From Streptomyces sp. NBC_01707 (GTDB lineage Bacteria; Actinomycetota; Actinomycetes; Streptomycetales; Streptomycetaceae), in assembly GCF_041438805.1 (NCBI RefSeq), contig NZ_CP109190.1, positions 1,426,001 to 1,490,000 of the forward strand: a stretch of 64,000 nucleotides of DNA. Reading direction: 5' to 3'. A program made the translations under genes and the position numbers. The notes under the pieces were generated by a model. The model did no database searches and had not been told where the DNA came from. It saw only the letters and a list, made by a program, of their open reading frames with translations. This document shows, one piece after another, positions 7,783 through 42,748 of the stretch; positions within the stretch are counted from its first letter, which is position 1; the number at the start of each line of letters is the position of its first letter.

Positions 7783-8121
7783 ATGACCGCAGAAGATCCG
7801 CTCGGCCGTCTCGACGACGACGACTACCCCGCCTACACCATGGGCCGGGCCGCCGAAATACTCGGTACGACCCCCGCGTTCCTGCGGGCCATCGGCGAAG
7901 CTCGCCTCATCACTCCCCTGCGCTCCGAAGGCGGCCACCGCCGCTACTCCCGCTATCAGTTGAAGATCGCCGCCCGCGCCCGTGAACTCGTCGACCAGGG
8001 CACCCCGGTTGAGGCGGCCTGCCGCATCATCATCCTCGAAGACCAGCTCGACGAAGCCCAGCGCATCAACGAAGAACTGCGCCGACCCGCCACCCGGTCC
8101 CGCTCCAAGTCCGAGGCCTGA
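7783..8121 (+). CDS. Small MerR-like DNA-binding regulator
   Basis: 112 residues. The ATG at 7783 is preceded by AGAGGTG at a good distance. A MerR winged helix occupies residues ~14-75: YTMGRAAEILGTTPAFLRAI is the helix-turn-helix and LITPLRSEGGHRRYSRYQL the wing with the characteristic GGHRRY. A short helical tail (EAACRIIILEDQLDEAQRI) probably dimerises. No effector domain or metal-binding cysteines follow, so it belongs to the short stand-alone MerR proteins common in Streptomyces. The regulon is unknown. Terminators lie on both sides, making it a monocistronic unit. Confidence 0.85.
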   Translation: MTAEDPLGRLDDDDYPAYTMGRAAEILGTTPAFLRAIGEARLITPLRSEGGHRRYSRYQLKIAARARELVDQGTPVEAACRIIILEDQLDEAQRINEELRRPATRSRSKSEA

Positions 8122-26009: not shown

Positions 26010-28877
26010 TCAGCCCCCGGCCGGGCTGTGACCCTTGAGATCGGCGAGGTCGTAGGTGGTGTCACCGAGTGTCAGCGCATCGCCAGATGTGGTGGCCGTG
26101 GGCGGGGTGCCCTTGCCGACGGCCAGGACAATCTTGAAGTCGGCGTCCACGCCGTTGCGGGTGACCCTGAACGCACCCTTGTCCAAGGAGAGTTCGGCGC
26201 CCTCGGGAGCCAGGACCCAGCCCTTGAGATACCCCTCCCCCTTCTTGAAGAGGAAGGTCTTCGCACCCGACTCGGTCTCACCGAAGGTGATCGTCGTGCC
26301 GGACTCGGGAGCCAACTGCCAGTCGTAGCGGTGTGAGTCGGAATCCGCGAACTCGTCGTGGACGGCAATGACGGAATCCGCCCCGCCGACCGAGCGCAGA
26401 TCGACCGCCAGGTCGCGGTGGGCCTTGGCCAGTTCGTAGTTGAGGTGGCCGTCGAGGGAGACGTAACCGCCGCCCTGACCGGCGTAGGCACGGGACTCCA
26501 AGGTCTCGCCCTTGCCCGCGATGCTGTCCGTGCTGCGCTTCTCGGGGAAGCCGTCGACAAGCGGCTTGGAGAACAGCTCCCGCTTGGCGTAGTCCTTGGC
26601 GGGCTGCCGGGCCCAGGTCACGTCCTGGCCGACCAGCGACAGGGCGAAAGTGTCGAATCCGCCCCAGCCGATGTGGTTGTCGTTGCGGTTCTGGGCACCG
26701 ACCAGCACATCGTCCTTGTCCTGGTAGCGGCTGCGGAAGAGGTACGAGCCGCCGTGGTCGTCGAGGAGCGCCGCGCGCACCGCCGCCGGTCCCTCGTCAG
26801 GGTCCTGCGGAGTGACACCGTACGGGTAGTTGAGCAGGCCGTAGACACCACCACCGCCGCCGACGGTCCTCTCGTACTGCCACAGCCATGCCGCCCGCTG
26901 GTCGGCGGGCACCTGGGTGAAGATCAGGCCAGGAATGGGCACCCCGCCATTGGCGGTGCCGACGCCCCACTGCAGCCGAGCGTTGTCGGGCTGCGCGGAG
27001 GCACTGTGCAGCACCAGGTTTGCGAAGGCGGGCCGCTGCCACTTCGCCTTGAGCGCCCCGAGCCCGGCGTCGACGGAGCCGACGACAGCGGGTGCTCCGA
27101 CGCCGAGTCCGTAGCTGAAGTAGTCGGTTCCCTCCTGATCCCAGCCGGCGTCGGAGTACGCGGTGTCCAGGTGCCGGCCGAGGGCGTCGACCAGCTGCGG
27201 GATCCGGTACTCCTGGAGGTCGAACGGGCCGTCGCCGCGCACCGCGAGCCGCAGCGACAGCTCGGCGCCGCGCACTACCGCGGTCCAGTTGCTCTGCTTG
27301 GTCGGCAGGTCGAAGTTCGGGTGGTACGAGACCTCCAGGTAGGCGGCGACGCGCTGCAGTACCTTCTGCGCCTCGGCGCGCTGCTCGGGTGTCCAGCCCG
27401 GATAGGCCCAGTCATAGGCGGTGGCCAGGGGCCCTGCGGCATTGGCGGTCTCCAGGGCCGCGGCCCCGGCGTATGCGGTGCCGTTGATGAACGGCATGGT
27501 CCGGCCGGACTCGATGAGCGCGTCATAGGCGGTCTGCGCGTAGGCCGGGTCCTGACTGACCTGGTAGAGGAGTGCGGCGTCCATGGCCCAGGACGCCTGA
27601 GACGCGCCCTGCCCGTAGTTGTAGCCCGGCAGGCCCTTGGCGACCCGGTTGGCGATGCTGTCGTACGTCGACTTGGGGGTACCGTCCTGCTGGATCGCGG
27701 CGCGGATCGCTGCGAGTTTGTCGTCGGTGACGCCCATCCGCGGGTGCTGCAGGCTCGCCAGGCTGGCGGTGGCGAGGACCTTGCCACCCTGTCCGACGAC
27801 TGCGAAGCCGGTGGCGCCGCGGCGCTCCCCGTCCCGCAGCGTGACCCCGCCGGTGGTGTCGTGGCCGCCGTGCGTGCAGACTCTGCGGGCCTTGTGCAGC
27901 TTGCCGTCGGCGACCTCGGGGCCGCCTGCGTACAGCGTCACCGGGCCCTTGGTGCCGGCCTTGAGCCGCCAAGCGAGGCGGGCGCCCTCGCCGTCCTCGG
28001 TCGCCGTCAGCACATTCGTCTGCTGCTCGTCCAGGTAGGCCGAGGGCGTGGTGACGGTCTCGGGGTCGGTGGTGGCCAGCTTCGTGCCGTCCGCAGCAAG
28101 GGCGACGACCTTGTAGGTGTAGCGCACGCCGGGGCGGGCCGAACCGTCTTCTGCGGTCCACGCGTCGGGGACCTCCCGGATCAGGGTCTTCGCACCCGGC
28201 GTGAAGTCCGCGCGGGTCGAGCGGTGCACCTGGTACGAGGCCGGGGTGTCCTCGATTGCGGCGAAGTGCCAGGTGAGCTGGACGGCGCCGGTGGGCTGGA
28301 CATTGGCTCCCACGGCGTTGCCCTCGATGTGCTCGACCTTGACGTTGTCGATGAGCATGCGGCCGGTGGTCTGCTCGAGGGCGAGGAGCAGGTTGACAGC
28401 CTTGGCGCCGGGCCGGGCGAGGACGACGGCGTTGGCCTTGCGCCACCCTGTGTTTCCGGTTATCCGGCCGACGATGGCGTCATGGCCGAAGTTACGGGCC
28501 CACAGGTCGCCGCCGTAGCCGGACAGGCCGACGGCACGCTCGTCGAATGTGATCCGGTACGCCTGGAACGTGGTGTTGTCGGCGATGGGGATGTCCTGGC
28601 CGACCGCCGCCTTGTCGCCCGGGTCACCGAGGTCGAGGGCGAGAGCCCGGCTGCCGTCGGGGCCCGCCCCGTCCACGATCGTGGCGTGACCACTGGCCCG
28701 GTTCTCACTCTGCGGCCAACCGACGATACTGCCGTCTGCGGCGACCTGCTCGAAATCGCCGTTGGTGATGAGTTCGGCGGCGTACGAGGGTGCGGGCACG
28801 ACCACAGCGAGGGTGCCCGCCAGGGCCGCGCCCACTATGGCGATCCGGGTCAGGCGCGGCGAGGTGGATCTGGACAC
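26010..28877 (-). CDS. Large secreted heparinase II/III-like polysaccharide lyase
   Basis: 955 residues. The GTG at 28877 follows GGAGG and opens a Sec signal (~1-34, ending SYAA). Order: a carbohydrate-binding-like jelly roll (ELITNGDFE ... GRMLIDNVKVEH, ~35-185); a fibronectin-III-like domain (VQLTWHFAAIEDTPASYQVH, ~195-290); a helical toroid (~370-680) with ATAYDWAYPGW and SNWTAVVRGAELSLR; and a C-terminal beta-sandwich domain (YVSLDGHLNYELAKAHRDL to the end). The toroid-plus-sandwich arrangement is that of heparinase II/III, alginate and chondroitin lyase superfamilies, which cleave uronate linkages by beta-elimination. I cannot fix the PL family or substrate. The position in an uronate-polysaccharide locus fits. 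Confidence 0.8.
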   Translation of the reverse strand: MSRSTSPRLTRIAIVGAALAGTLAVVVPAPSYAAELITNGDFEQVAADGSIVGWPQSENRASGHATIVDGAGPDGSRALALDLGDPGDKAAVGQDIPIADNTTFQAYRITFDERAVGLSGYGGDLWARNFGHDAIVGRITGNTGWRKANAVVLARPGAKAVNLLLALEQTTGRMLIDNVKVEHIEGNAVGANVQPTGAVQLTWHFAAIEDTPASYQVHRSTRADFTPGAKTLIREVPDAWTAEDGSARPGVRYTYKVVALAADGTKLATTDPETVTTPSAYLDEQQTNVLTATEDGEGARLAWRLKAGTKGPVTLYAGGPEVADGKLHKARRVCTHGGHDTTGGVTLRDGERRGATGFAVVGQGGKVLATASLASLQHPRMGVTDDKLAAIRAAIQQDGTPKSTYDSIANRVAKGLPGYNYGQGASQASWAMDAALLYQVSQDPAYAQTAYDALIESGRTMPFINGTAYAGAAALETANAAGPLATAYDWAYPGWTPEQRAEAQKVLQRVAAYLEVSYHPNFDLPTKQSNWTAVVRGAELSLRLAVRGDGPFDLQEYRIPQLVDALGRHLDTAYSDAGWDQEGTDYFSYGLGVGAPAVVGSVDAGLGALKAKWQRPAFANLVLHSASAQPDNARLQWGVGTANGGVPIPGLIFTQVPADQRAAWLWQYERTVGGGGGVYGLLNYPYGVTPQDPDEGPAAVRAALLDDHGGSYLFRSRYQDKDDVLVGAQNRNDNHIGWGGFDTFALSLVGQDVTWARQPAKDYAKRELFSKPLVDGFPEKRSTDSIAGKGETLESRAYAGQGGGYVSLDGHLNYELAKAHRDLAVDLRSVGGADSVIAVHDEFADSDSHRYDWQLAPESGTTITFGETESGAKTFLFKKGEGYLKGWVLAPEGAELSLDKGAFRVTRNGVDADFKIVLAVGKGTPPTATTSGDALTLGDTTYDLADLKGHSPAGG

Positions 28878-29168
28878 GAGCTTTCCTCCGGTGGGAAGTC
28901 GAAACCACGGCACGGGTGGATCACACGTGCCGAGGGTGGAGTGGCCCCGCCACGACGGCGGGCCCACGTCTTGGGGGTTCGGGCTGGGGTCTTTCGTTCG
29001 GATCAGGCCGGATCAGGGAGCGGCCCGCCGCGGAGCGGCTGATGTCACCGTGGTGCGTGCAGCTGCAAGGCGGAGGAACGAGCCCACGCGGAGCGTCGGC
29101 GACTGACGACAACGCGGCAGATGCGCGTGCCAGACCCCGCGAGCCCAGAGTGATCCAAACGAGAGGCC

Positions 29169-29906
29169 CTAGACGTCGCTGCTGGTCGTGCCCATCTTCA
29201 GACCGTTGATCCAGTTGACCTGGTCGGTGTCGGTGACATTGGAGTCGTACGTGCCCCAGCGGGGCTTGTTGCCGAGGTCGTCCCAGGTCCGCACGTTCTT
29301 CTGATCGACGATCAGACTGCCGTCCAGATACACCTGGAACGAACCGGTGGTGGCCGACTGCGCGTTGATGCCCAGCTTGATCTTGTGCCAGGCGCCGGGC
29401 GTCCAGGCACCGCTGCCGACGCCGATCCACTCCTCGCCCGGCGCGACGTACCAGACGCGGAGCTGGTTCCCGAGGACCATCATGATCAGCGGGTAGTTCT
29501 GCTGGTGCTGCTCTCCGGTGCCGTTGGACTTCCACTGGAAGACCGTGCCCATGTCGCCGGTGAGGGTCTCGGACTCCCAGCCGAACCAGTACGTGTTGCC
29601 GCCGGTGAACTGGTACTCCGAACCCCCTACTCGTACGCTGTGTCCTTCGCAGCGCACCTGGCCGGCCTTGTTGACGAAGCCGAAGATGTCTCCGCGACCG
29701 TCATTCCAGTCGGTGGTGTAGAGGTAGTTCGGGGAGTCGCAGAGGACATCGGCGAAGACACCGGATCCATTGGACGCGTCACCGTCCCAGATGACCGATG
29801 CATGGGCGGGCGTCGCCGTGAGCATCATCGCGGTGGCGCCTGCGGCGAGTGGGGACAGGACTGCGCGCAGGGCGCGGGGGATGAATCGGACCGTGCGGCT
29901 TTGCAA
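29169..29906 (-). CDS. Secreted concanavalin-fold polysaccharide lyase-like protein
   Basis: 245 residues. It uses a TTG start at 29906 with AGGAGG upstream. The Sec leader begins MQSRTVR like its neighbour at 25078, with cleavage near AHAS. The mature part is all-beta and carries features of the heparin-lyase-I/PL20-like jelly roll: YWFGWES, VFQWKSN, PLIMMVLGNQLRVW, WHKIKLGIN, GSFQVYLDGSLI and the terminal WINGLKMGTT. These proteins cleave or bind acidic glycans. Truncated relatives of this family survive as fragments at 42293-42748, with the tail VNWINGLKMGTT nearly identical. Catalytic residues cannot be assigned. Confidence 0.72.
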   Translation of the reverse strand: MQSRTVRFIPRALRAVLSPLAAGATAMMLTATPAHASVIWDGDASNGSGVFADVLCDSPNYLYTTDWNDGRGDIFGFVNKAGQVRCEGHSVRVGGSEYQFTGGNTYWFGWESETLTGDMGTVFQWKSNGTGEQHQQNYPLIMMVLGNQLRVWYVAPGEEWIGVGSGAWTPGAWHKIKLGINAQSATTGSFQVYLDGSLIVDQKNVRTWDDLGNKPRWGTYDSNVTDTDQVNWINGLKMGTTSSDV

Positions 29907-30553: not shown

Positions 30554-32944
30554 TCAGGCGAGGGTGACCGCGATCTTGTGGGTGGCTCCGGTCTTGGCAC
30601 TGCTGTCGATGCGGAGTTGCAGCGAGGATCCGCTGGCCAGCACGGTCACGGACGGGTCCTTGGACACCACGGCGGAGACCGGCCGGTTCCAGGTGATGTC
30701 GAGGCTGGTCACAGTCTTGGTGGGATTGGAGACACAGAGCGTGCCGGTGGTACCCGATTCCCGAGTCATGACGCTGGCCGCGCCGCTGGAGGTCAGCTTG
30801 TCGATCGTGCCGGCGCCGTAGAAGTTCACAGCGGTATAGCCGAGCGAGGGCACCCTGATGCCCTGCTGGTTGGCCGAGTTGGCCAGGATTGTGAGCCAGT
30901 TGGTGTCGGCGGCCCGCGCGGAGGCGGCGGCGGTGTCGGCGCCGGGCATGAGGATGTAGGAGTAACTTCCGCCGCTGGGGTTGGTGCCGTGGTCGAACCA
31001 CAGGGTGAGGTAGCGGCGGGTCAGTGGGGTGGTGGAGCCGCCGTTGTTGATATCGCTCCACGCGCCGGTGCGCTCGGCACGCAGCGCCTTGACCGTAGCG
31101 CCGCCGGGGAAGACGTAGCTGCCCATGCCGGCGAGGGTGGCCCACTTGGCGCCGGTCAGCGTTGCGGACCAGCCCAGCGTGGACGGTTGCGCAGTGCCGT
31201 CCACGGTGAAGGTGTGAGTGCCGGATGCACCGAGGTTGCGGTTCTCCACGATGGACTCGACCCCGGTGCCGTCCGCGCAGCCGATCCCGGCGCCCAGGCA
31301 GACGATCGAATCGTCGAGCAGGAACCAGGACTTGCGTCCGGCGAGGGTGGACTGCAGTCCGCGAATGTCCATGCCGATGGCCGAGTACGTGCCGTCGGTG
31401 GCACCGCCCGCCCAACTGGAGGTCGGCGCCGGCCCGCCGAAGTCACCACCCGCACCGTCGGCCAGGGCCTTCTTGGAGACGGTGGTACCGGGCATCCGGT
31501 ACGGGTCGGCGGTGGGCCAGAACGCGTCGGAGAACTGCCCCAGCGTGCTGTCCTTCCACCAGTAGAGCATTCCGGAGCTGGTGTGCCAGCCGCGCTTGTT
31601 CTCCTGGTTGCCGAACTCGTAGAACGCGGTCCGCGCCGAGCACATCGACAGTGTGGCGGCCCAGGCGGGACGGCGGTGCGTGGCGCGGTCCATGGCCGCG
31701 AAGAGCCGGTGCCCGCTCGGTTCCGCCACCGCAGCCACCGCGGCGTCATCGCGCACCGACCTCAACCGGGAGAGCGAGGCTACGTCGAGGGAGAGGTTGT
31801 TCTCCAGGGTGAGGAAGTAGTCGCGCTGCAGCCAGCCCTTGACCAGGCCCTTCCAGCGGGACTGCTCGGCGGAGCTCGCGCCCATCCCCAGCATGAGGAT
31901 CGCGGCCATGGCGCCCTGGCCACGCGAGTGGTCGCTGCTTGCGAAGCCGTTGGTGCTGGAGGCGGACAGGCCCCGGCTGATCGCCCGGCCCATCACGTTG
32001 TCCATGAAGACGCCGTTGTACAGGAACGGAGCAAAGGAATCCTCGACCGCGTCCAGCATCAGCTGCTTGTTGCCGTCGGTGACGTCCCAGGTGGAGCTCT
32101 TGAGCAGGGCGAATATCCAGGCCAGACCGCTGACCAGCACCGCGCCGTAGGAGCCGGTGTAAGGGATCCTGGTGTGCTGGATGAACGAGCCGTCGGTGTA
32201 GAACCCGTCGCCGGAGGTGACGTACGGGAAGACCGGGGAGAGCCCGTTCCGGCCCGAGACGATCTTCGCGGAGGTCTTGCCGACCACGCCACGCAGGGCG
32301 AAGACCCGGCAGAAGTCGACCCGGTTGGCACCGGTGCTGTGCCCCGAGTACGACGTCAGCTCGGACTCGGGCAGGAAGTGGTCGATTGCCGCACAGTAGT
32401 CGGCGATCTGCGCGGCCGACAGTTTGTCGTACATCAGCACGCAGACGTCGAGCAGCGCCTGTGGGGAGCCGATCTCCGCGTTCCACCACCAGTTGCTGGA
32501 GGGCAGGGTGAAGGAGGCGTTGTAGACATTGGTGTGCACATGCTCCAGGCCGGCGACGACGTCGGAGGCGAGCGAGGCGTCGCCGGTCAGCCCGGTGCCG
32601 GGCAGGGACCAGGCCAGCGCCATGGTCTTGAGCCGGTTGAAGCTGCCCGTGACCGGGTCCCCGCCCACCGAGGAGTACGGCTGGTCGGGCCACAGTGAGG
32701 TGCTTGACGGCGCCATGGACGAGCGGTACGTGGTGGCCTGCGTGCCCAATGTGGCCAGGCGGGAGGCGAAGAGCGGATCCGAGGCGTCGACCCCGGTGCC
32801 GAGGAGCAGGTCCCGCCATCTCAGGCGCAGGGTGTCGTACTCGTCGGCGGCAAAGGCGGGAGAAGCCGGGACGAGGGTGAGCGCCAGGGCAGCACCTACT
32901 GTGGCGCCGAGGAAACCGCGGCGGGACCAGGACGTCATTGTCAT
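30554..32944 (-). CDS. Secreted PL8 polysaccharide lyase (hyaluronate/chondroitin/xanthan lyase type)
   Basis: 796 residues. The ATG at 32944 follows GGAGG and gives a Tat leader (WSRRGFLGATVGAALAL). An N-terminal alpha/alpha toroid carries the aromatic patch NWWWNAEIGSP. The PL8 catalytic triad is placed as Asn ~207 in TGANRVD, His ~257 in SFIQHTRIP and Tyr ~266 in TGSYG. The His is 50 residues after the Asn and the Tyr 9 after the His, the same spacing as Asn349/His399/Tyr408 in pneumococcal hyaluronate lyase. C-terminal beta-sandwich domains follow. Cleaves uronate glycans by beta-elimination to unsaturated oligosaccharides. Substrate (hyaluronan, chondroitin or xanthan type) is undecided. 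Confidence 0.93.
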   Translation of the reverse strand: MTMTSWSRRGFLGATVGAALALTLVPASPAFAADEYDTLRLRWRDLLLGTGVDASDPLFASRLATLGTQATTYRSSMAPSSTSLWPDQPYSSVGGDPVTGSFNRLKTMALAWSLPGTGLTGDASLASDVVAGLEHVHTNVYNASFTLPSSNWWWNAEIGSPQALLDVCVLMYDKLSAAQIADYCAAIDHFLPESELTSYSGHSTGANRVDFCRVFALRGVVGKTSAKIVSGRNGLSPVFPYVTSGDGFYTDGSFIQHTRIPYTGSYGAVLVSGLAWIFALLKSSTWDVTDGNKQLMLDAVEDSFAPFLYNGVFMDNVMGRAISRGLSASSTNGFASSDHSRGQGAMAAILMLGMGASSAEQSRWKGLVKGWLQRDYFLTLENNLSLDVASLSRLRSVRDDAAVAAVAEPSGHRLFAAMDRATHRRPAWAATLSMCSARTAFYEFGNQENKRGWHTSSGMLYWWKDSTLGQFSDAFWPTADPYRMPGTTVSKKALADGAGGDFGGPAPTSSWAGGATDGTYSAIGMDIRGLQSTLAGRKSWFLLDDSIVCLGAGIGCADGTGVESIVENRNLGASGTHTFTVDGTAQPSTLGWSATLTGAKWATLAGMGSYVFPGGATVKALRAERTGAWSDINNGGSTTPLTRRYLTLWFDHGTNPSGGSYSYILMPGADTAAASARAADTNWLTILANSANQQGIRVPSLGYTAVNFYGAGTIDKLTSSGAASVMTRESGTTGTLCVSNPTKTVTSLDITWNRPVSAVVSKDPSVTVLASGSSLQLRIDSSAKTGATHKIAVTLA

Positions 32945-33037
32945 GTGGGCCTCCGAAGGGGTTGGGGGCGGGCAGTGGTGGTGCGCCACGGCGTTTCGGT
33001 CCGTGGTACACCGCCACTTGTGTCAAAGCAGTTGGCG

Positions 33038-33937
33038 CTACTGCCAGACGCGGATGTAGTCGACGTACATGTTGGATCGGTAGTCCAGAGGGGCGTCGTA
33101 GATGGAGCCGGCGGCCCACTCGGCGGATTCGCTCGAGATCACCGGGAACATGGGGACCTGGCTGATGAGTTTCGGGTCGGTGATGTCCCGCACGATGGCG
33201 CTGTCGTACCGGTAGATGATCCGGTCCGAGCGCCATTCGACGGTGTAGGTGTGGTAACCGCTGTGCAGCCCGGGGGCGTTGACCGACACGGATGAGACCT
33301 TGTGGTCGGCTCCGTAGCCGTCGTAGTGGATGGTGTTGCCGTAGCTGTCCGACGCGGAGGTGCTTTCGATGACGTCGTACTCGCCGCCGTCGCGGGCCGT
33401 GCCGTCCACGCCGTTGACACCGCCGGGGGGCATCATCCACAGGGCGCCGAAGAGATCGTTGTCGGGCGGCATCTGCGCCCGCCACTCGACGGTGCCGTAG
33501 GTGAACTCGAACTTTCCCCGCCCCTCTATCTCACCCGTGGCGTACTCGGTGTCGCTGAGCTTCGACAGCGAGATCCACAGGTTGCCGCCGTTGACGGAAT
33601 TGGGGTTGGGGTTGGGGTTGACCTTGACGTTCGACGGCTTCCACCAGCTGTCGAAGTACTCGCCGTCCCTGCGCTTCGAATCCACCGAAGACCACTTGGA
33701 GCTGTCGAGCGAGGTGCCGTAGAACTCATCGCTGAAGACGAGTGTTGCGTGGGAGCTGCCGCCGTTGGGCCGGACGCCGACCGGGGTGTTGGGATCGACG
33801 AAACCGACCGCCTGCGCAGGGGTGGCGCCCGGGACGGCGAGCGTCGCCGCGAGAAGACCTGCCGCGGCCGCCAACGTGCGTATGCGCAGGGTGCTGAGGG
33901 CTGCGTGCTGGACGGATCGGACCTTGCGTCGTTGCAT
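33038..33937 (-). CDS. Secreted GH16 endo-glucanase/galactanase-like enzyme
   Basis: 299 residues from the ATG at 33937 (AAGGAGG upstream), with a Sec signal ending AQAV. One GH16 jelly roll follows: LVFSDEFYGTSLDSSKW, IEGRGKFEFTYGTVEWRAQM, LWMMPPGG, and the catalytic GGEYDVIEST with nucleophile Glu ~186, helper Asp ~188 and acid/base Glu ~191. It ends YRSNMYVDYIRVWQ. GH16 enzymes cut beta-1,3/1,4-glucans, agar, carrageenan, porphyran or xyloglucan, and the subfamily cannot be settled by eye. A deleted paralogue lies at 29958-30427. The leader starts MQRRKVRS, echoing the neighbouring secreted proteins. Confidence 0.92.
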   Translation of the reverse strand: MQRRKVRSVQHAALSTLRIRTLAAAAGLLAATLAVPGATPAQAVGFVDPNTPVGVRPNGGSSHATLVFSDEFYGTSLDSSKWSSVDSKRRDGEYFDSWWKPSNVKVNPNPNPNSVNGGNLWISLSKLSDTEYATGEIEGRGKFEFTYGTVEWRAQMPPDNDLFGALWMMPPGGVNGVDGTARDGGEYDVIESTSASDSYGNTIHYDGYGADHKVSSVSVNAPGLHSGYHTYTVEWRSDRIIYRYDSAIVRDITDPKLISQVPMFPVISSESAEWAAGSIYDAPLDYRSNMYVDYIRVWQ

Positions 33938-34146
33938 TGTCTCCTCCTTGCGTTGCGGGAAAGCGAGTCCGTAGAGGCAACGGGCCTGCCATATGTCGGC
34001 GTCCAGATTCCGGCCGACCACTCTGGTGGGCCGGCACCTCGCCCTCGGCGGCTCAGCGGAGGACGACGATGAGCGTGGCGGTGGGGGGTCGTGCCCGTTC
34101 GAAAACGTCACGGACAGCCCTCTGCGGGACCTGAGTGAGCGGGTTA

Positions 34147-34207: not shown

Positions 34208-35881
34208 TCAGGCCTTTTGGGCGGCGGCGTGCTCCTTCGCGTACTCCTCGGCGGCCTTGTCTCCGCCCTTGGCCTTCCAGTCCTTGACCATGGCGTCCCA
34301 GGCCGAGAGCGGCTTGCGGCCCATGACGATCGCCTTGATCGTGTCTTCCTTGAGCAGCATCAGCTCGTTGAGCTTGGCGTTCCAGGTCTTGGACAGCAGC
34401 CCCACCGACGGGTCGGCGATGCCGACCTCGGCGATCTCGGACTGGAAGGCATGACGACGCTTCACGAGGTCGGCCCCGTCAGGGACAGAGGCGGGCAGGA
34501 AGACCACCTGCTGGGGGCAGGCCAGGAAGCCGACGCCCAGGGTGTCCTTGTTGTCGCCGTCGAGGAAGAGCTGGTTCGCCACCGGGCTGCCGTCAGCAGC
34601 ACGCTTGTCGAAATGGGTTCCTTCGACACCGTAGTTGATCAGCTCGTACTCCTTGGTGCCGAACGGTGCGGCCAGATAGTCGAGGACCCGCAGCAGCAGC
34701 TTGATGCGGTCCTTGGGAGCCTTCTTCAGGACGGTCTGGTAGTCGGCGCCGGGCGAGAACCAGTGACCGGGCTGTGCGCCGTTGGACGGCTTGAACGGGC
34801 GGGCGGTCTCCAAGGTGAAGCCATCCTTGATGGCCACGGCGTTGCCGAAGAAGTCGGCGTTGGCCCTGGACACCGTCGCGGTGATACCGGTCTGGAAGTC
34901 GATGCCGAGTGCGGCGTCGTGGGAGAGCGGGTCGGCGCGGAAGACACCGGCCTTCTGCCACTTGGCCAGCTGCTCGATGCCCGCCGTGAACTCGTCCGTC
35001 TCGAGGGAGCTGGTGAACTGGCCGTTCTTGACCGCCCACTGGTTCGGCGCACCGAAGGCGGGCACGATGGAGTTGAAGCCGAAGGCGCCGAGGCCGGCCA
35101 CACCCATGGCCCACTTCTTGCGGCCGGAGATCTGCTGCATACCCTTGGTGAAGTCGTCGACCGCGATTCCGCCGATCTCAGGGACCCAGATCCCAGCCTC
35201 CTTGAGGCGTTCCATGTTGGCGGACAGCGAGTGGCCGATGCGGGAGCGCTCGATCGGAAGCTTGTAGAGTCTGCCGCCGATTCGGCCGGCGGCCTTCCAG
35301 GCGTAGGTGGGGATGGCGGCCAGGTTCGGGTACTCCTTGATGGCGTCCCCGGAGACGAACTCGGTCAGGTCCTGGCACTTGGCGGCGATCAGCTCGGTCG
35401 GGTTGGGCAGGTTGGCCGACACCGCGATGATGTCCGGCAACTCACCACCGGCGACGAGCGTGGCGAACTTCTGATTGCTCTCCATGGCGGGCACAACGAC
35501 CAGGTCGAGGTCGACACCGAGCTCCTTGTTCAGCGCCTGCCACAGCTTGTGCTTCTCCTTCGCCTTCGGCGGCGCACCCCACGTGATCGTCCACACCGTC
35601 ACCTTGGAGCCGTCGCCCGGCTTCTCGGCGACCGACTGCTTCAGCTCCTTCGGATACGAGAGGAAGCCCGGCTGTACACCCTTGTCGGTCGGGGCCAGGT
35701 CCGGCTTCGGCGCATCGGGCTGAGGCGTGTAGGTCGGCCACGGTGCGAGGTTCTTGCCCTCGTTACCAAGAGCACTGCCGCCGCTGGAGCTGGAACAGGC
35801 GGACAGCGAGACGCCGGTGGCGGCGAGTGCAGTGCCGATACCAATCGTGCGCAGGACAGATCTGCGGGAGATAGAGGACAT
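34208..35881 (-). CDS. LplA-type oligosaccharide-binding lipoprotein
   Basis: About 557 residues. The ATG at 35881 (AAGGA upstream) is preferred to 35899. A Tat-like twin-arginine leader (ISRRSVLRTIGIG) ends in lipobox SLSAC, so the protein is lipid-anchored outside. The large two-lobed fold and length match the LplA group of extracellular binding proteins that pair with LplB and YtcP permeases: VTVWTITWGAPPKAKEKHKL, LDLVVVPAMESNQKFATLV, AFGFNSIVPAFGAPNQWAV. Third gene of a permease-permease-binding protein operon on the minus strand. It should capture oligosaccharides released by the neighbouring lyases. No ATPase gene is present, so a shared MsiK-type ATPase is probably used. Confidence 0.9.
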   Translation of the reverse strand: MSSISRRSVLRTIGIGTALAATGVSLSACSSSSGGSALGNEGKNLAPWPTYTPQPDAPKPDLAPTDKGVQPGFLSYPKELKQSVAEKPGDGSKVTVWTITWGAPPKAKEKHKLWQALNKELGVDLDLVVVPAMESNQKFATLVAGGELPDIIAVSANLPNPTELIAAKCQDLTEFVSGDAIKEYPNLAAIPTYAWKAAGRIGGRLYKLPIERSRIGHSLSANMERLKEAGIWVPEIGGIAVDDFTKGMQQISGRKKWAMGVAGLGAFGFNSIVPAFGAPNQWAVKNGQFTSSLETDEFTAGIEQLAKWQKAGVFRADPLSHDAALGIDFQTGITATVSRANADFFGNAVAIKDGFTLETARPFKPSNGAQPGHWFSPGADYQTVLKKAPKDRIKLLLRVLDYLAAPFGTKEYELINYGVEGTHFDKRAADGSPVANQLFLDGDNKDTLGVGFLACPQQVVFLPASVPDGADLVKRRHAFQSEIAEVGIADPSVGLLSKTWNAKLNELMLLKEDTIKAIVMGRKPLSAWDAMVKDWKAKGGDKAAEEYAKEHAAAQKA

Positions 35882-35954
35882 GACGAACCGATCCTTCATG
35901 AGGAGCCCCGAACAGGGGCGGGGTGGGTCAGCGGTGAGGGGGAGCGAGAGTCAG

Positions 35955-36869
35955 TCAGCTCTTGATGGCGCCGGTGAGGACGCCCTTGGTGAAGTAGCGC
36001 TGGATGAAGGGGTAGACGCACAGGATCGGCACGGTGGCGAGCACCACGACCGCCATGTTCACGGTCTGCGGGGCGAACTGGATCTGCTCGCTGACGCCAC
36101 CGCCGACCGAGATGAGGCTGTTCTGGCTCTGCACGACGTAGGTGCGCATCCAGGTCTGCAGGGGCCACATCGTGGCTTGGTCGGTGTAGAGAATCGCGCG
36201 GAAGAAGTCGTTCCAGTAACCGACCGCGTAGAACAGGCCGACCACCGCGACGACCGCCTTGGACAGCGGCAGGACGATCGTGACCAGGGTGCGCAGCTCA
36301 CCCGCGCCGTCGATCTTGGCCGATTCGAAGAGCTCGGCCGGGATGCCCTGGAAGAAACCGCGCATCACGACCAGGTTGAACGCGCTGATCAGTACCGGCA
36401 GGAACAGTGCCCAGTAGGTGTTGCGCAGCCCCATGCCGTTGACCACGAGGAAGCTGGGGATCATGCCGGCAGGGAAGAGGAAGGTGAACAGGATCATCAA
36501 CATCACCGGCTTGCCGCCGACGACATTCGGCCGGGCCAGGGCGTAGGCCAGCATGACTGTGCACGTCAAGCTGAAGGCCGTACCCACCACGGTGATGCCG
36601 CCCGAAACCAGCATCGCCCGGGTGATCTGGCCGCCGGAGAAGATCAAGTCGTACGCATGCGTGGTCCACTGGTCCGGCCAGAGCGCATAGCCGCCGTTCG
36701 CGATCACCTGCTTGTCCGGGGCAAAGCTGGTGGCGATCACGACCCAGAACGGGACGATCACGACCAGCACGGTGACGACCAGGGCCAGGCCCTTGACCCC
36801 CTGGGTGACCGGCTTCGGCTTCTCCATCCAGGCCGGGCGCTCGGCGTGCTCCGAAACAGCAGCGCTCAT
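35955..36869 (-). CDS. Carbohydrate ABC permease, YtcP/MalG type
   Basis: 304 residues with six membrane segments. The EAA motif, which contacts the ATPase, is GIPAELFESAKIDGAGELRT followed by LVTIVLPLSKAVVAVVGLFY. The C-terminal RYFTKGVLTGAIKS is characteristic of the YtcP branch. Its ATG overlaps the stop of the upstream permease gene in the pattern TGATG, so the two are translationally coupled and form the heterodimeric channel for the LplA-type binding protein encoded downstream. Confidence 0.93.
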   Translation of the reverse strand: MSAAVSEHAERPAWMEKPKPVTQGVKGLALVVTVLVVIVPFWVVIATSFAPDKQVIANGGYALWPDQWTTHAYDLIFSGGQITRAMLVSGGITVVGTAFSLTCTVMLAYALARPNVVGGKPVMLMILFTFLFPAGMIPSFLVVNGMGLRNTYWALFLPVLISAFNLVVMRGFFQGIPAELFESAKIDGAGELRTLVTIVLPLSKAVVAVVGLFYAVGYWNDFFRAILYTDQATMWPLQTWMRTYVVQSQNSLISVGGGVSEQIQFAPQTVNMAVVVLATVPILCVYPFIQRYFTKGVLTGAIKS

Positions 36870-37855
36870 CAGCGGTACACCCCCTGCTCGCCCATACGGT
36901 GAGCGATCTTGTTCGCGGCGAAGACGAGACAGGCGCCGATGACGCCCTTGAACAGGGCGGCGGCGGCCGCCACGCCCCAGTTCTGGTCGCGGATGCCGTG
37001 GTAGAAGACATAGGTGTCGATCACTTCGGACACGTCGGGGCCGAAGGCGTCGCGTTGCAGCAGGATCTGCTCGAAGCCGACCGAGAGAATGTCACCGAGG
37101 CGCAGGATCAACAGCAGAAAGATCACCGCACGCAGCCCCGGGAGCGTCACGTGCCAGAACCGGCGCCACGGGCCCGCCCCGTCCAGAGCCGCAGCCTCGT
37201 ACAGCCCCCCGTCGACCTGGGCCAGCGCGGCGAGGAAGATGATGGTGCCCCAGCCGCACTCCTTCCAGATCAGCTCCAGCACCATCAGGGGCTTGAACAG
37301 GTCCGGATTGCCGATCACGTCGACCAAGTGACCGTCGGATCCGCCCAGCGCACCGTTCAGGACGCCGTCCGCTCCCAGCACCTGCTGGAAGAGAGCGACC
37401 ACGATCACCCACGAGATGAAGTGCGGCAGATACACCACACTCTGGACGAACTTGCGCACCCGCCCCTGGATCAGACTGTGCAGCAGCAGAGCCAGCGCCA
37501 GCGGAACGGGGAAGTAGAACACCAGCTGCGCCAAGGAGATGACCACCGTGTTCGACGCCGCATGCCAGAACGCCGGCTCACCGAACAGCGCCTGGAAGTT
37601 GGCGAAACCCACCCACGGGCTGTCCTTCACCCCCAGGAACGGCATGTAGTCCTTGAACGCGATCACGTTCCCGAACAGCGCCAGATACTGGAAGACCAGG
37701 AAGAAGAGAACACCCGGCGCCATCAGCAGCAGTAGCGTGCGGTCCCTGCGTATCCGGGACCAGAGGCCAACGGTGTGCCGGCTCTCCTTCCCGGGCCGGC
37801 CGGGGACGACCGGTGGTAGCCGGCGCGCCTCCAGTTCCTTCACTGCGACCGACAT
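36869..37855 (-). CDS. Carbohydrate ABC permease, LplB/MalF type
   Basis: About 328 residues from the ATG at 37855 (GGGGAG upstream). Six membrane segments; the N-terminal one (LLLLMAPGVLFFLVFQYLAL) is followed by FGNVIAFKDYMPFLGV, typical of LplB. The EAA loop is GGLYEAAALDGAGPWRRFWH followed by VTLPGLRAVI. The C-terminus is KIAHRMGEQGVYR. First gene of the import operon. A promoter with spacing-17 hexamers lies at 38005-38033 and the hybrid-regulator operator at 38042-38077 upstream of it. Confidence 0.93.
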   Translation of the reverse strand: MSVAVKELEARRLPPVVPGRPGKESRHTVGLWSRIRRDRTLLLLMAPGVLFFLVFQYLALFGNVIAFKDYMPFLGVKDSPWVGFANFQALFGEPAFWHAASNTVVISLAQLVFYFPVPLALALLLHSLIQGRVRKFVQSVVYLPHFISWVIVVALFQQVLGADGVLNGALGGSDGHLVDVIGNPDLFKPLMVLELIWKECGWGTIIFLAALAQVDGGLYEAAALDGAGPWRRFWHVTLPGLRAVIFLLLILRLGDILSVGFEQILLQRDAFGPDVSEVIDTYVFYHGIRDQNWGVAAAAALFKGVIGACLVFAANKIAHRMGEQGVYR

Positions 37856-38004: not shown

Positions 38005-38033
38005 ATACTGGCGAGCGTTCCGATCGCAGTCAA
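38005..38033 (-). promoter_or_regulatory. Predicted promoter of the import operon
   Basis: On the minus strand TTGACT (38028-38033) and CAGTAT (38005-38010) are separated by 17 bp, a good vegetative-type pair. They lie 150-180 nt before the LplB-type start codon and immediately downstream of the operator at 38042-38077. Confidence 0.5.
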
Positions 38034-38041
38034 GAGGGCGG

Positions 38042-38077
38042 GATCGAAGTTTCGATCCTTCGATCATTACGATCGAA
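38042..38077. promoter_or_regulatory. Operator copy 1 for the DeoR-LacI hybrid regulator
   Basis: The element TTCGATC (38051-38057), one base, TTCGATC (38059-38065), ATTAC, GATCGAA (38071-38077). The last two form a 7-bp inverted repeat with a 5-bp spacer. A further GATCGAA at 38042-38048 forms a second palindrome with the first TTCGATC. It lies between the regulator stop (38082) and the import-operon promoter. The same architecture recurs at 39307-39333. Confidence 0.75.
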
Positions 38078-38081
38078 TTAA

Positions 38082-39248
38082 CTAGCTCTTCAGCTCGGCG
38101 CCACAGGACTGCCGTACACGAAGCTCGGGCAGTAGGGCCAGGTGTCGTTTCGAAGAGGCCCCCTGCCCCTGCCGACGCTCCCGCACACGCCGAAGAAGCA
38201 ACTGCACGGCCTCCTGGCCCACCTCGTACTTCGGCGGTGCGACCGCCGTCAGCGGGAGGTCGGAGAGTGCCGCCACGTCGTCGTCGTACGCAATGATCGC
38301 CAGGTCCTGCGGTATCCGGAGCTGCGGCTCGAGGCTGCGCAGGATCTGCAGCAGGAGGATGGCATCCGTGTCGCTCAGCACGACTGCCGCGCTCACCTGC
38401 CCTGCGTCGACGGCTTCGACCAGCCTCTTCGCCGCCCGCTCGAGGCGGCCCGTGTCGAGCTCGCCCTCGTACAGATCAATGGGGTCGATCGGCGGCCGGG
38501 CGACGCCGGCAGACCGCAGTGCTGCCTCGTATCCGGCCCGCACATGCACTCCCGTCGCACTCCCGCCGGCCAACAACGCAATGTCGCGGTGCCCGAGCGA
38601 GACGAGATGACGCACCGCGAGCCCGACTCCCGCGTAGTGGTCCGAGCAGACGAAGTCGAACTCGGCGGCCTGCGTGCCGGCGGCCGCTCGACGTTCGAGC
38701 ATGACGGTCGGAACGCCGAAGTCGAGGTCAGGGGCGTCCTCCTCGGAGCCGTCCCGCATCCAGCCCGGGGTCAGCAGCAGCCCGTCGATGCCCGAGTCCA
38801 GCAACCTGCGCGCCTGTTCCTCGTCCTGACCGGGGATGTAGCCCGAGAAGCCGAGCACGAGCCGGCCGCCGACCGACTGGACCTCCTCCCGCACACCTCG
38901 AATGATCTCTCCGAAGTAGTACTGGGATTGCGGGACCACCAGGCCAAGGGTGACGCCTGCGCCGTCGGCCAGGTCCGACGGGCCCGCTTCCGGGATCAGA
39001 TGCGGCCCCTGCACGAACGCGGCAGCCGGTGCGCCGGGCCAGGAGACTGCGCCCCGCGTCCGGTCCAGCCGCCCCGCGCCGGACAGAGCTTCCACATCGC
39101 GGCGCAGAGTGACCGTGGACATGCCCAGATGGTGCGCAAGGTCGGTGACCCGCAGGCTGCCGTGCTGACGGACCAGCTCAAGGATCCGCTCATGGCGTTC
39201 GTCGACCGTGTACCGCACACCGGGCTCCCACGCTGGTAGGGACGTCAT
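38082..39248 (-). CDS. Hybrid regulator: DeoR-type HTH fused to LacI-type sugar-sensing domain
   Basis: 388 residues from an ATG at 39248; a GTG at 39218 with GGGAG upstream is a good alternative. Residues ~15-70 are a DeoR-like winged helix (DERHERILELVRQHGSLRVT, HLGMSTVTLRRDVEAL). Residues ~95-385 are a periplasmic-binding-like domain of LacI type: VTLGLVVPQSQYYFGEIIRG, GIDGLLLTPGWM, VPTVMLERR, AVRHLVSLGHRDIALLAGG, AVVLSDTDAILLLQ and IIAYDDDVAAL. It probably binds a sugar and releases DNA. Identical operator architectures in front of the import operon (38042-38077) and in its own divergent promoter region (39307-39333) indicate it controls both sides and itself. Confidence 0.9.
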   Translation of the reverse strand: MTSLPAWEPGVRYTVDERHERILELVRQHGSLRVTDLAHHLGMSTVTLRRDVEALSGAGRLDRTRGAVSWPGAPAAAFVQGPHLIPEAGPSDLADGAGVTLGLVVPQSQYYFGEIIRGVREEVQSVGGRLVLGFSGYIPGQDEEQARRLLDSGIDGLLLTPGWMRDGSEEDAPDLDFGVPTVMLERRAAAGTQAAEFDFVCSDHYAGVGLAVRHLVSLGHRDIALLAGGSATGVHVRAGYEAALRSAGVARPPIDPIDLYEGELDTGRLERAAKRLVEAVDAGQVSAAVVLSDTDAILLLQILRSLEPQLRIPQDLAIIAYDDDVAALSDLPLTAVAPPKYEVGQEAVQLLLRRVRERRQGQGASSKRHLALLPELRVRQSCGAELKS

Positions 39249-39306
39249 TCATACAGGTCAGACTACTCCGGCGATCACGGAGATCGATCTGATCCATTTT
39301 CGCTCT

Positions 39307-39333
39307 TTCGATCATTCGATCTTGACGATCGAA
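39307..39333. promoter_or_regulatory. Operator copy 2 for the DeoR-LacI hybrid regulator
   Basis: TTCGATC (39307-39313), one base, TTCGATC (39315-39321), TTGAC, GATCGAA (39327-39333): the same 27-bp layout as 38051-38077, with differences only in the spacers. It lies between the regulator and the dehydrogenase-GH29 pair and overlaps the -35 hexamer of the rightward promoter. Confidence 0.75.
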
Positions 39334-39350
39334 ACGACGATCCCTAGGGT
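39322..39350 (+). promoter_or_regulatory. Predicted promoter of the dehydrogenase-GH29 pair
   Basis: TTGACG (39322-39327) and TAGGGT (39345-39350) with a 17-bp spacer. Transcription would begin about 7 nt later, at or next to the ATG at 39357, implying a leaderless or nearly leaderless transcript. Operator copy 2 covers the -35, consistent with repression. Confidence 0.5.
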
Positions 39351-39356
39351 CGGCGC

Positions 39357-40418
39357 ATGACCGCCCCGACCACGGACTCCAACGAGTCCCCCTTCCCTGG
39401 TCCGCAGCCACACCGCCGCCCCCGCACCTTGCTGGCGATGGACCCCTCCGTAACCCCCACGCTCCTCAGTCCACGCACGCTTCGCCGGCTCGCGCAGACG
39501 GCGGAGGTGGACCAGGGACTCATCGTCGACGACTTCTCGCAGGCAGACGCGCTCGCGGCCCTGCGCGACACCGAGGTGCTGCTGACGTTCTGGGGCTGCC
39601 CTCCTGTCGACGACTACGTGCTGACCGCAGCGCCCCGACTGCGGGCCGTGGTCCACGCGGCCGGCACGGTCAAGCCGTATGTCACCGAGGCGTGCTGGGA
39701 GCGCGGGATCCTCGTCTCCTCGGCGGCGGCAGCCAATGCGCTGCCCGTCGCCGAGTTCACCGTGGCCGCGGTACTGCTCTCGAACAAGCGCCTGCTGGAG
39801 GTGCGTGAGGCCTACCGCCGGATCCGCGGGGAACATGACTGGCGCAAAGCCTTCCCCGACGTCGGGAACTACCGCAGGACTGTCGGCATCGTCGGCGCCT
39901 CGCGTATCGGCCGACGGGTGGTCGAGCTGTTGCGCCCGTACGACCTGGAGGTGATCGTCCACGATCCGTATCTGAGCAGAACCGATGCCGCCGCGCTCGG
40001 GGTCCTCGCCGTCGGAATCGACGAGCTCTGCGAGACCTCCGACGTGGTCAGTGTGCACGCCCCCGAGACACCGGAGACCCGCCACATGATCGACCGCCAC
40101 CGGCTCGGGCTGATGCGGGACGGCGCGACACTCATCAACACCGCGCGCGGTTCGCTCGTCGAACAGGACGCGCTCATAGAGGAGTTGGTATCGGGGCGGC
40201 TGAGCGCCGTGCTCGATGTCACCGAGCCCGAGGTGCTGCCCGCAGGATCCCCTCTGTACGAACTCCCCAATGTGCTGCTCACCCCGCACTTCGCCGGCTC
40301 CTTCGGCAATGAGGTGCAGCGGATGGCCGACTCGGCGGTCGACGAGATCGCCCGGTACGCGGCCGGCCTGCCGTTCGCCCACCCGGTGCTCCGCAACGAG
40401 TTGGAGCGTACGGCGTGA
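39357..40418 (+). CDS. D-isomer-specific 2-hydroxyacid dehydrogenase family protein
   Basis: 353 residues. The NAD-binding domain is VGIVGASRIGRRVVELLRP (~residues 178-196; the GxGxxG motif reads GASRIG), followed by the acceptor Asp in VIVHDPY. The substrate-binding and catalytic residues follow the family order: Arg in INTARGSLVEQDAL, Glu in VTEPEVLP, His in LLTPHFAGS. It reduces or oxidises a 2-hydroxy acid with NAD(P). In this context it may act on a sugar acid derived from uronates, or as a reductase of a 2-keto intermediate. The GH29 gene starts inside its stop codon (GTGA), so the pair is translationally coupled. Confidence 0.88.
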   Translation: MTAPTTDSNESPFPGPQPHRRPRTLLAMDPSVTPTLLSPRTLRRLAQTAEVDQGLIVDDFSQADALAALRDTEVLLTFWGCPPVDDYVLTAAPRLRAVVHAAGTVKPYVTEACWERGILVSSAAAANALPVAEFTVAAVLLSNKRLLEVREAYRRIRGEHDWRKAFPDVGNYRRTVGIVGASRIGRRVVELLRPYDLEVIVHDPYLSRTDAAALGVLAVGIDELCETSDVVSVHAPETPETRHMIDRHRLGLMRDGATLINTARGSLVEQDALIEELVSGRLSAVLDVTEPEVLPAGSPLYELPNVLLTPHFAGSFGNEVQRMADSAVDEIARYAAGLPFAHPVLRNELERTA

Positions 40419-41686
40419 CGATGCAACCCTGGTTTCCCGAGGCCAAGCTCGGGATCTTCGTCCACTGGGGGATCTACGCGGTCCGGGGTGTCGCGGAGTC
40501 CTGGTCGTTCTTCGGCGGAGACATCTCTCACGAGCAGTACATGGAGCAGCTGGGGGGTTTCACCGCATCGCACTACCACCCGGACGACTGGGCGAAGCTC
40601 TTTGTCAGGGCAGGCGCCAAGTACGCCGTACTGACGACCAAGCACCACGACGGCGTCGCGCTCTGGGACACCCGGCAGACGGACCTGTCGGTCGTCCGGC
40701 GCAGTCCGGCCGCCCGCGATCTGGTCGGCCCATTCGCCGAAGCACTACGCCGCCAGAGCCTGCGCGTCGGTCTCTACTTCTCGCACAACGACTGGAGCCA
40801 TCCCGACTACCCCAGCGTCCGGCCCGCGCAGCTGCACAGGCCGTGGGTCGACAACCGCCGTGCGATGCCGGCGCCCGGCCAGGAGGACCCCGAGCGCTGG
40901 GAGCGCTACCTGGAGACCGTGCACCGCGGGCAGGTCCGCGAGCTCATCAACGGATACCGGCCCGATCTGCTGTGGTTCGACGGCGCCTGGGAGCGCGACG
41001 AGCGTCAGTGGCGGATGAAGGAACTCCGTGATGAGATCCTTCGGCTGAACCCCCGGACCGTACTCAACGGCCGGATGCTCGGCCACGGTGACTACGCCAC
41101 CCCCGAGCTCGGTGTGCCGATCGTGCGGCCCGTAGGGCCGTGGGAACTCTGCTACACCATCGGCGACATGTGGGGGTACCAGCCCCAGGACGTCAACCAC
41201 AAGTCGGTGCGCGAGCTGGTACGTGTCTTCACGGAGACCATCGGCCACGGAGGCAATCTGCTGCTCAACACCGGCCCGAAGGAGGACGGCAGAATCCGAC
41301 CCGACCACGCCCAGCGACTCGAGGGCCTCGGCCGCTGGATCCGCCGCAACAGCGAGGCCGTGTACCCCACCGAAGCCGGCCTTCCCTACGGACATCACTA
41401 CGGTCCGTCGATGCTCTCCAAGGACCGCCGCACGCTCTTCCTCGTCTGCTTCGACGCGCCCCGTGTATTCGTCGAGCTCCGCGGCCTACGCAACACCGTC
41501 AGGAGCATCTCCGCACTCGGCACCGGGGAGCAGCTCGACCACCGGGTCGTCGGGGGTTTCCCCAGCCGCGGCGTACCAGGCGTCGTCCGTATCAACGCAC
41601 CGACCGTCTGCGATCCATACGCCACCGTCCTCGCCCTCGAACTCGACGGCGAACTCGATCTCTACCGCGGACAGGGCGAGGGCTGA
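40415..41686 (+). CDS. Cytoplasmic GH29 alpha-L-fucosidase (copy 2)
   Basis: 423 residues from a GTG overlapping the dehydrogenase stop; an ATG two codons later (40421) is possible. No signal peptide. WFPEAKLGIFVHWGIYAV, KYAVLTTKHHDGVALWDT and PDLLWFDGAWE (nucleophile Asp ~189) match copy 1 at 17083 without large gaps, and both have the same length. The enzyme would cleave fucosides or similar deoxyhexosides imported by the LplB/YtcP/LplA system. The second gene of a coupled pair under the hybrid-regulator operator. Confidence 0.9.
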   Translation: MTMQPWFPEAKLGIFVHWGIYAVRGVAESWSFFGGDISHEQYMEQLGGFTASHYHPDDWAKLFVRAGAKYAVLTTKHHDGVALWDTRQTDLSVVRRSPAARDLVGPFAEALRRQSLRVGLYFSHNDWSHPDYPSVRPAQLHRPWVDNRRAMPAPGQEDPERWERYLETVHRGQVRELINGYRPDLLWFDGAWERDERQWRMKELRDEILRLNPRTVLNGRMLGHGDYATPELGVPIVRPVGPWELCYTIGDMWGYQPQDVNHKSVRELVRVFTETIGHGGNLLLNTGPKEDGRIRPDHAQRLEGLGRWIRRNSEAVYPTEAGLPYGHHYGPSMLSKDRRTLFLVCFDAPRVFVELRGLRNTVRSISALGTGEQLDHRVVGGFPSRGVPGVVRINAPTVCDPYATVLALELDGELDLYRGQGEG

Positions 41687-41895
41687 ATCCAGGCAGTCGG
41701 TGGATGGAGCACCGATGCCCCGACGATCGCATCGAACGAAAATGATCGACCGACCGGCTCGTCCTCGAGCCCTGGCGCAGGCTCCGGGCACGACTGTCCT
41801 GACGGCTTGTCCGGAACGAAGCGCGGAGCGGAGCAGATGGTGATCGTCACCCTCGACGAACGTGACCCTGCGGGCGCACCTACGTCAGTCCTCGA

Positions 41896-42292: not shown

Positions 42293-42427
42293 GGCACCTA
42301 CGGCTCCACCATCACCGACGTCGAATCGGTCAACTGGATCAACGGCCTCAAGATGGGCACGACACGCGCCGCCGTCGACTGGGCCCCGGGAACCGGGCGG
42401 GTGCGCTCCCCCGCACTCGCCCGGTAA
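42293..42427 (+). pseudogene. 3' fragment of a concanavalin-fold lyase-like gene
   Basis: Forty-five codons read GTYGSTITDVESVNWINGL, KMGTTRAAVDW and a frayed tail to TAA at 42425-42427. It matches the C-terminus of the secreted protein at 29169-29906 (GTYDSNVTDTDQVNWINGL, KMGTTSSDV) on the opposite strand. The gene body is absent. Confidence 0.75.
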
Positions 42428-42430
42428 CTC

Positions 42431-42748
42431 CGCGCTGAGCCGGCCGGCACTCCGACGACCGAGCGCTGGCAGCTGATCTGGTCGACACCCGTGCCCGCCT
42501 GGCGGTGGGACCGGATTGTCCTGGGCATCCACACCTCGGACTCAGCCTCGGGCGGCTGGGTCGACCTCTGGTGCAACCGCAGCAGGCGGACGTTCAGCAA
42601 CGGCACCACCCGCTTCACGGGCCGGACCTGGAACACCTACAACGACCCCAAGTGGGGCGTCTACGACCGCGACACTCCCGGACATGCCGCGACCAACCGC
42701 ATCGACGCCCCGAAGGTCGGTACCACCTACGACGACGTCGTCCGGTGA
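42431..42748 (+). pseudogene. 3' fragment of a second lyase-like gene
   Basis: An open frame without a proper start begins after the preceding stop and reads ERWQLIWSTPVPAW, RWDRIVLGIHTSDSASGGWV, DLWCNRSRRTFSNGT, DPKWGVYDRD, IDAPKVGTTYDDVVR, stop at 42748. This is the C-terminal ~100 residues of the heparin-lyase-I/PL20-like fold, from a different subfamily than the preceding fragment. It is in the same frame as that fragment, separated by one TAA. Confidence 0.7.

Follow-up and report, generated by a model that had tools for sequence, protein, structure and literature searches.

DeoR-family RhaR regulators carry a DeoR sensor domain. The motifs predicted for these regulators consist of two imperfect direct repeats with a periodicity of 10-11 bp, and LacI-family rhamnose regulators have 20-bp palindromes (PMC3870299). 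AraR of Bacillus subtilis uses two cooperatively bound boxes at some promoters and one box at others (PMC4218819). Here, we analyse a regulator encoded in a 64,000-nt stretch of Streptomyces sp. NBC_01707 DNA (the window), together with two DNA elements that flank its gene. The elements are real, conserved and functional-looking operators, and the regulator is a hybrid of a known kind whose composite operator layout is unusual. In the open-access literature, as represented by listings and abstract openings, we found no paper on a characterised DeoR-LacI hybrid, which is no proof of absence; the names that sources give to members of the group are limited to substrate-binding domain-containing protein, LacI family protein and DeoR/GlpR family protein.

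The 27-bp element and its promoters

The preliminary description of the locus reported that the pattern TTCGATC-N-TTCGATC-N5-GATCGAA flanks the regulator gene on both sides. We recovered the pattern with no mismatch at 38051-38077 (copy 1) and 39307-39333 (copy 2), on either side of the minus-strand gene at 38082-39248 (Table 1), and it was absent from 100 dinucleotide shuffles of the window. The whole-genome scan proposed there returned only these two copies in 9.9 Mb at up to three mismatches, and the reversed control pattern gave no match in the same scan. The exact tandem TTCGATC-N-TTCGATC also occurs genome-wide only in copies 1 and 2, and GATCGAA-N(0-25)-TTCGATC has a single occurrence in the genome, inside copy 1. 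The element had been described as three half-sites; these are indeed present and exact, but the description is incomplete in that copy 1 contains four conserved half-sites and one degenerate half-site, its full form being GATCGAA-N2-TTCGATC-N-TTCGATC-N5-GATCGAA (38042-38077).

Looser scans of the genome returned few additional places. Allowing one mismatch in TTCGATC-N5-GATCGAA adds one, C1:1122561, upstream of a gene named GH13-like by eye from its first residues. The array at this place (C1:1122561-1122579, locus L041) reads ATCGATC-N4-TTCGATC-N2-TTCGATCGAT and is accompanied by TTGACG and TAGGTT; the gene downstream is apparently leaderless, and a paralogous hybrid regulator may use the array as its operator. 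The 3-kb locus around it contains no match to the regulator. Wider scans for exact pairs gave, beyond copies 1 and 2, an inverted pair at C1:1011251 and seven tandem pairs, one of which is the GH13 array. Of the seven pairs outside the GH13 array, four are covered by an open frame of high third-position GC and three are not. A half-site cluster at 41725 was set aside as degenerate and situated in apparent gene remnants.

Both promoters were read by eye after an E. coli-type consensus scan of the region had called none, using the Streptomyces rule TTGAC-N17-TANNNT. Copy 1 lies just upstream of the transport operon promoter, the minus-strand TTGACT-N17-CAGTAT, between about -44 and -79 relative to the inferred start, and copy 2 overlaps the -35 of the dehydrogenase-GH29 promoter, TTGACG-N17-TAGGGT (39322-39350); both placements are as originally claimed. 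Because the ATG at 39357 comes 6 nt after the -10 TAGGGT, the sequence suggests that the dehydrogenase-GH29 transcript is leaderless. With low confidence, TAGTCT on the minus strand may be the regulator gene's own -10. Both window promoters have a CGATC core at or directly 3' of TTGAC, although this core is not universal: by eye, neither S. pathocidini nor copy 2 of Streptomyces sp. Je 1-79 has it. The placement of the two copies does differ, and the different promoter effects that had been suggested are possible, but the core in both promoters fits repression at both.

Table 1 Features of the regulator locus, with positions in the window; invariant columns refer to the alignment of five loci
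Feature	Position	Strand	Basis and remarks
PL8 polysaccharide lyase	30554..32989	-	PF08124, PF02278, PF02884; best PDB match 2wco
GH16 protein	33038..34111	-	PF00722
Probable ABC solute-binding lipoprotein	34208..35899	-	No Pfam match; position, synteny, lipobox by eye
ABC transporter permease 2	35955..36869	-	PF00528
ABC transporter permease 1	36869..37855	-	PF00528; ATG 37855 behind GAGGGGAG by eye; longest ORF to 37909
-10 CAGTAT, transport operon promoter	38005..38010	-	By eye; 17-nt spacer; 3/6 columns invariant
Degenerate half-site TCCGATC in -35/-10 spacer	38019..38025	+	5/7 columns invariant
-35 TTGACT, transport operon promoter	38028..38033	-	By eye; 5/6 columns invariant
Copy 1 fourth half-site GATCGAA, everted	38042..38048	-	Exact; 6/7 columns invariant
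Copy 1 half-site TTCGATC	38051..38057	+	Exact; 7/7 columns invariant
Copy 1 half-site TTCGATC	38059..38065	+	Exact; 5/7 columns invariant
Copy 1 half-site GATCGAA	38071..38077	-	6/7 columns invariant; seventh touched by alignment gap
Regulator: DeoR-type winged helix (residues 18-68), LacI-type sugar sensor (about 100-382)	38082..39248	-	PF08220, PF13377, PF00532
Candidate -10 TAGTCT of regulator gene	39260..39265	-	Inferred by eye on the alignment
Degenerate third tandem half-site TTCGCTC, copy 2, 8-bp period	39299..39305	+	Cluster scan; not conserved in the four other loci
Copy 2 half-site TTCGATC	39307..39313	+	Exact; 5/7 columns invariant
Copy 2 half-site TTCGATC	39315..39321	+	Exact; 6/7 columns invariant
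-35 TTGACG, dehydrogenase-GH29 promoter, within copy 2	39322..39327	+	By eye; 6/6 columns invariant
Copy 2 half-site GATCGAA	39327..39333	-	Exact; 5/7 columns invariant
-10 TAGGGT, dehydrogenase-GH29 promoter	39345..39350	+	Sequence; 17-nt spacer; TANNGT in 5/5 loci
D-isomer-specific 2-hydroxyacid dehydrogenase	39357..40418	+	PF02826, PF00389
GH29 (alpha-L-fucosidase family)	40415..41686	+	PF01120; best PDB sequence relatives named alpha-L-fucosidase

Gene neighbourhood

The permeases, the solute-binding protein, GH16 and PL8 are encoded on one side of the regulator, and the dehydrogenase and GH29 on the other. The best PDB match of the PL8 protein, 2wco, is named a putative secreted lyase and is presumably from Streptomyces; it is followed by xanthan, chondroitin and hyaluronate lyases. 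Despite the polysaccharide lyases of the cluster, no match to the unsaturated uronyl hydrolase family PF07470 (GH88/GH105) was found genome-wide. Two large cluster proteins (23903-25078 and 26010-28967) have no Pfam match over the cut-off and are conserved in several related loci; the latter shows a weak heparinase II/III-like match and has no PDB relative by sequence. These two are possible new polysaccharide-active enzymes. Among the apparent gene fragments downstream of GH29, a remnant at 42310-42740 shares WINGLKMGT with the PF14099-type lyase at 29169-29906 and, by eye, resembles the end of this protein.

Conservation in orthologous loci and recurrence in other genomes

We aligned five loci, from the window, G065, S. 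mesophilus, Streptomyces sp. NRRL B-3428 and Streptomyces sp. Je 1-79, counting S. mesophilus (L042) and G205 (L005) once as apparently the same genome. At copy 1, 24 of the 28 half-site columns are invariant versus 17 of 50 other non-coding columns, and at copy 2, 16 of 21 versus 22 of 76; end gaps that arise from unequal cutting of the loci inflate the apparent variability of the other columns. All five loci preserve the start-to-start spacings of 8 bp and 12 bp at both sites, although the half-sites of Je 1-79 are degenerate. The count excludes the more distant loci of S. pathocidini (L044, apparently the same as L006) and of Catellatospora (two loci), which contain only scattered or degenerate half-sites and lack the 27-bp architecture. 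In its strict form, this architecture is therefore confined to closer orthologues of at least 59% identity.

The gene neighbourhood can still be recognised in six named loci (L042-L047), albeit with some genes lost or moved. In the two Catellatospora loci, GH29 lies on the far side of PL8, and no dehydrogenase match was found between the regulator and GH29 in S. mesophilus (L042, about 6400-7970) or S. pathocidini (L044, about 6500-7970). Copy 2 is retained in S. mesophilus although the dehydrogenase match is absent.

A search of 392 Streptomyces genomes with up to two mismatches gave nine matches in six genomes, against none for the reversed control. Eight of the nine adjoin the regulator, a homologue or a PL8 gene (six of seven without the two window copies). 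Besides the window copies, four matches flank the G065 and G205 orthologues, one precedes a 42% identical homologue in G112, one is upstream of a PL8 gene in G328, and the last, in G177, shows no visible connection with the cluster. Over the part compared, the G328 stretch is identical to that of Je 1-79, and in the latter the PL8 operator-like site is about 6 kb away from the regulator. Upstream of PL8, the layout is TTCGATC-N5-GATCGAA-N-GATCGNN-N2-TTCGATC, then TTGACT and CGATCGG, placing four half-sites, one of them degenerate, before the -35 in the order and orientation of copy 1. This recurrence at another pathway gene is the strongest independent support for the predicted operator.

The regulator protein

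The regulator had been called a DeoR-LacI hybrid, and its domain make-up bears this out, with PF08220 and PF13377 in one protein. The DeoR-type winged helix scored 51.8 bits (PF08220, cut-off 21) and the LacI-type core 94.4 bits (PF13377, cut-off 26.5) and 49.6 bits (PF00532, cut-off 22.2), while neither the DeoR C-terminal sensor domain nor the LacI helix-turn-helix gave a Pfam match in the regulator up to E 0.001. Residues 100-382 match LacI-type sensor models. Of the NCBIfam models, CytR and RbsR matched the sensor best and PurR scored nearly as well, each far short of its cut-off, and the PDB relatives by sequence are LacI-family sensors and the arabinose repressor 3tb6. The start may be the alternative GTG at 39218, giving 378 aa, which is the length of several close relatives.

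The chain ends six residues past the LacI-type match, with no obvious tetramerisation or leucine-heptad tail by eye. A DeoR-like multimer, one of the arrangements hinted at earlier, was therefore rejected as unlikely, because the DeoR C-terminal domain is missing from the protein. An AlphaFold model built on a 4-row alignment was poor (mean pLDDT 61.3, pTM 0.44). Residues 15-69 are modelled as three helices and a wing, confidence is low at 75-96, and no hinge or other helix appears at residues 70-99, again at low confidence. The linker between the winged helix and the sensor is probably flexible, an argument made weak by the quality of the model and its shallow alignment.

Related hybrids and their half-sites

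Among 8000 candidates scored, 380 are relatives at E <= 1e-30, and by eye nearly all of the 120 relatives listed have both PF08220 and PF13377 (P0032 is without PF08220). A match at E <= 1e-60 was found in 94 of 295 Streptomyces genomes, including the regulator's own, which has four further matches at E <= 1e-20, one of them over the sensor part only. A paralogue lies at C1:1930521. Two matches of 42-44% identity came from plasmid records, in Embleya.

Half-sites were analysed in 30 loci among the matches listed, the window's and 29 others. In these 29 homologous loci, which are related so that the counts are not independent, the 16.2 kb of flanks contain 55 occurrences of TTCGATC and the remaining 103 kb only three. 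TTCGATC alone is present in the flanks of 15 of the 29; when ATCGATC and TTCGCTC are included, variants chosen after inspecting the loci and hence more a lead than a definition, all 29 have at least one, with 114 occurrences versus a mean of 14.6 in 200 shuffles. Five permuted heptamers served as controls. Two never occur and two are not enriched in flanks (1 versus 12 and 9 versus 42); the fifth, TCGTATC, is enriched (10 versus 0), a result probably due to its overlap with the half-site context in one subgroup.

For the spacing counts, subgroups were set by a short N-terminal motif rather than a tree, and half-sites were defined more loosely. The window regulator's subgroup has tandem 8, inverted 12 and 20, and everted 9, each in three of four loci. 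A second subgroup has tandem 29 in 10/10 and everted 17 in 9/10 loci, and a third has everted 6 in 7/16, tandem 10 in 5/16 and tandem 9 in 4/16. The sets overlap: tandem 29 and everted 17 are found in three and two, respectively, of the four loci of the window regulator's subgroup, and tandem 8 in three of the ten of the second. The half-site seems to serve related hybrids too, at other spacings that overlap in part. It is conceivable, though we regard it as doubtful, that Streptomyces repressors of this kind share nearly one half-site and that their regulons are kept apart by half-site arrangement and spacing rather than base sequence; the overlap between subgroups lowers the probability of such a separation.

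Discussion

We consider it highly probable that copies 1 and 2 serve as operators for the regulator whose gene they flank, and that this regulator acts as a local repressor released by a sugar. Whereas the pattern, its uniqueness, the domain make-up, the synteny and the conservation were observed directly, the scheme that we infer for binding, repression, dimer number and inducer is as follows. A dimer of the LacI-type sensor would carry two DeoR-type winged helices, each reading one TTCGATC half-site, and a flexible tether would enable a single dimer to use tandem or inverted half-sites. At copy 2, the ligand-free regulator would cover the -35 of the apparently leaderless dehydrogenase-GH29 promoter and repress it. 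At copy 1, probably two dimers would sit on the four half-sites just upstream of the transporter promoter, and this complex would reach the degenerate half-site inside the promoter spacer. The lyases would cut a polysaccharide, and the ABC transporter would import a mono- or oligosaccharide that releases the regulator.

One point against this scheme is that the main cluster of copy 1 lies upstream of the -35, a position also used by activators. This holds in all five aligned loci and likewise for the PL8 operator of Je 1-79, and would suit a dual regulator that represses at copy 2, over the -35, and activates the transporter operon from copy 1. We give this reading a minor chance of being correct, as a conserved degenerate half-site (5/7 columns invariant) stands between the transporter -35 and -10, as for occlusion, and the PL8 promoter of Je 1-79 also has CGATCGG between its -35 and -10. 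The presence of operator arrays on both sides of the regulator gene in each of the five loci raises another option, in which a tetramer or higher multimer bridges copies 1 and 2, 1256 bp apart, and loops out the gene. Such bridging seems quite improbable, given the lack of a DeoR C-terminal domain match, a chain that stops soon after the LacI-type core and shows no obvious leucine-heptad tail, and an inter-operator distance that varies across loci.

The elements might instead belong to a different regulator, or be read by several DeoR-LacI paralogues, as the four further matches in the genome and the similar array before the GH13-like gene, with no regulator match in its 3-kb locus, could suggest. 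We judge this very unlikely, because the exact architecture is found only around this regulator gene and travels with its closer orthologues. That the elements are a chance or non-regulatory repeat has next to no probability: the G177 site is the one near-match of nine with no visible cluster link, against which stand the empty shuffles, the empty reversed control in 392 genomes and the conservation across species.

For this group of regulators, the local repressor reading supplies a predicted operator, a regulon and a testable mechanism, and the locus is a candidate sugar-responsive Streptomyces switch with a leaderless output promoter. If arrangement does separate regulons, the family would offer a natural system for how a winged-helix dimer chooses among tandem, inverted and everted half-sites.

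With the LacI-family repressors CytR, RbsR and PurR, the window regulator shares the sensor domain, but it differs from them in having no LacI helix-turn-helix match. Its elements resemble those of DeoR-family RhaR in their tandem half-sites; in contrast to the RhaR period of 10-11 bp, however, they have an 8-bp period with inverted and everted partners, and the regulator has a LacI-type sensor. AraR is likewise a chimera, in which a GalR/LacI-type sensor carries a foreign winged helix, and it also controls sugar and polysaccharide use. While the AraR helix is GntR-type and its operators are palindromic boxes, the helix of the window regulator is DeoR-type and its half-sites are tandem, inverted and everted. 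AraR is a precedent for a regulator that binds two boxes cooperatively at some promoters and uses a single box at others.
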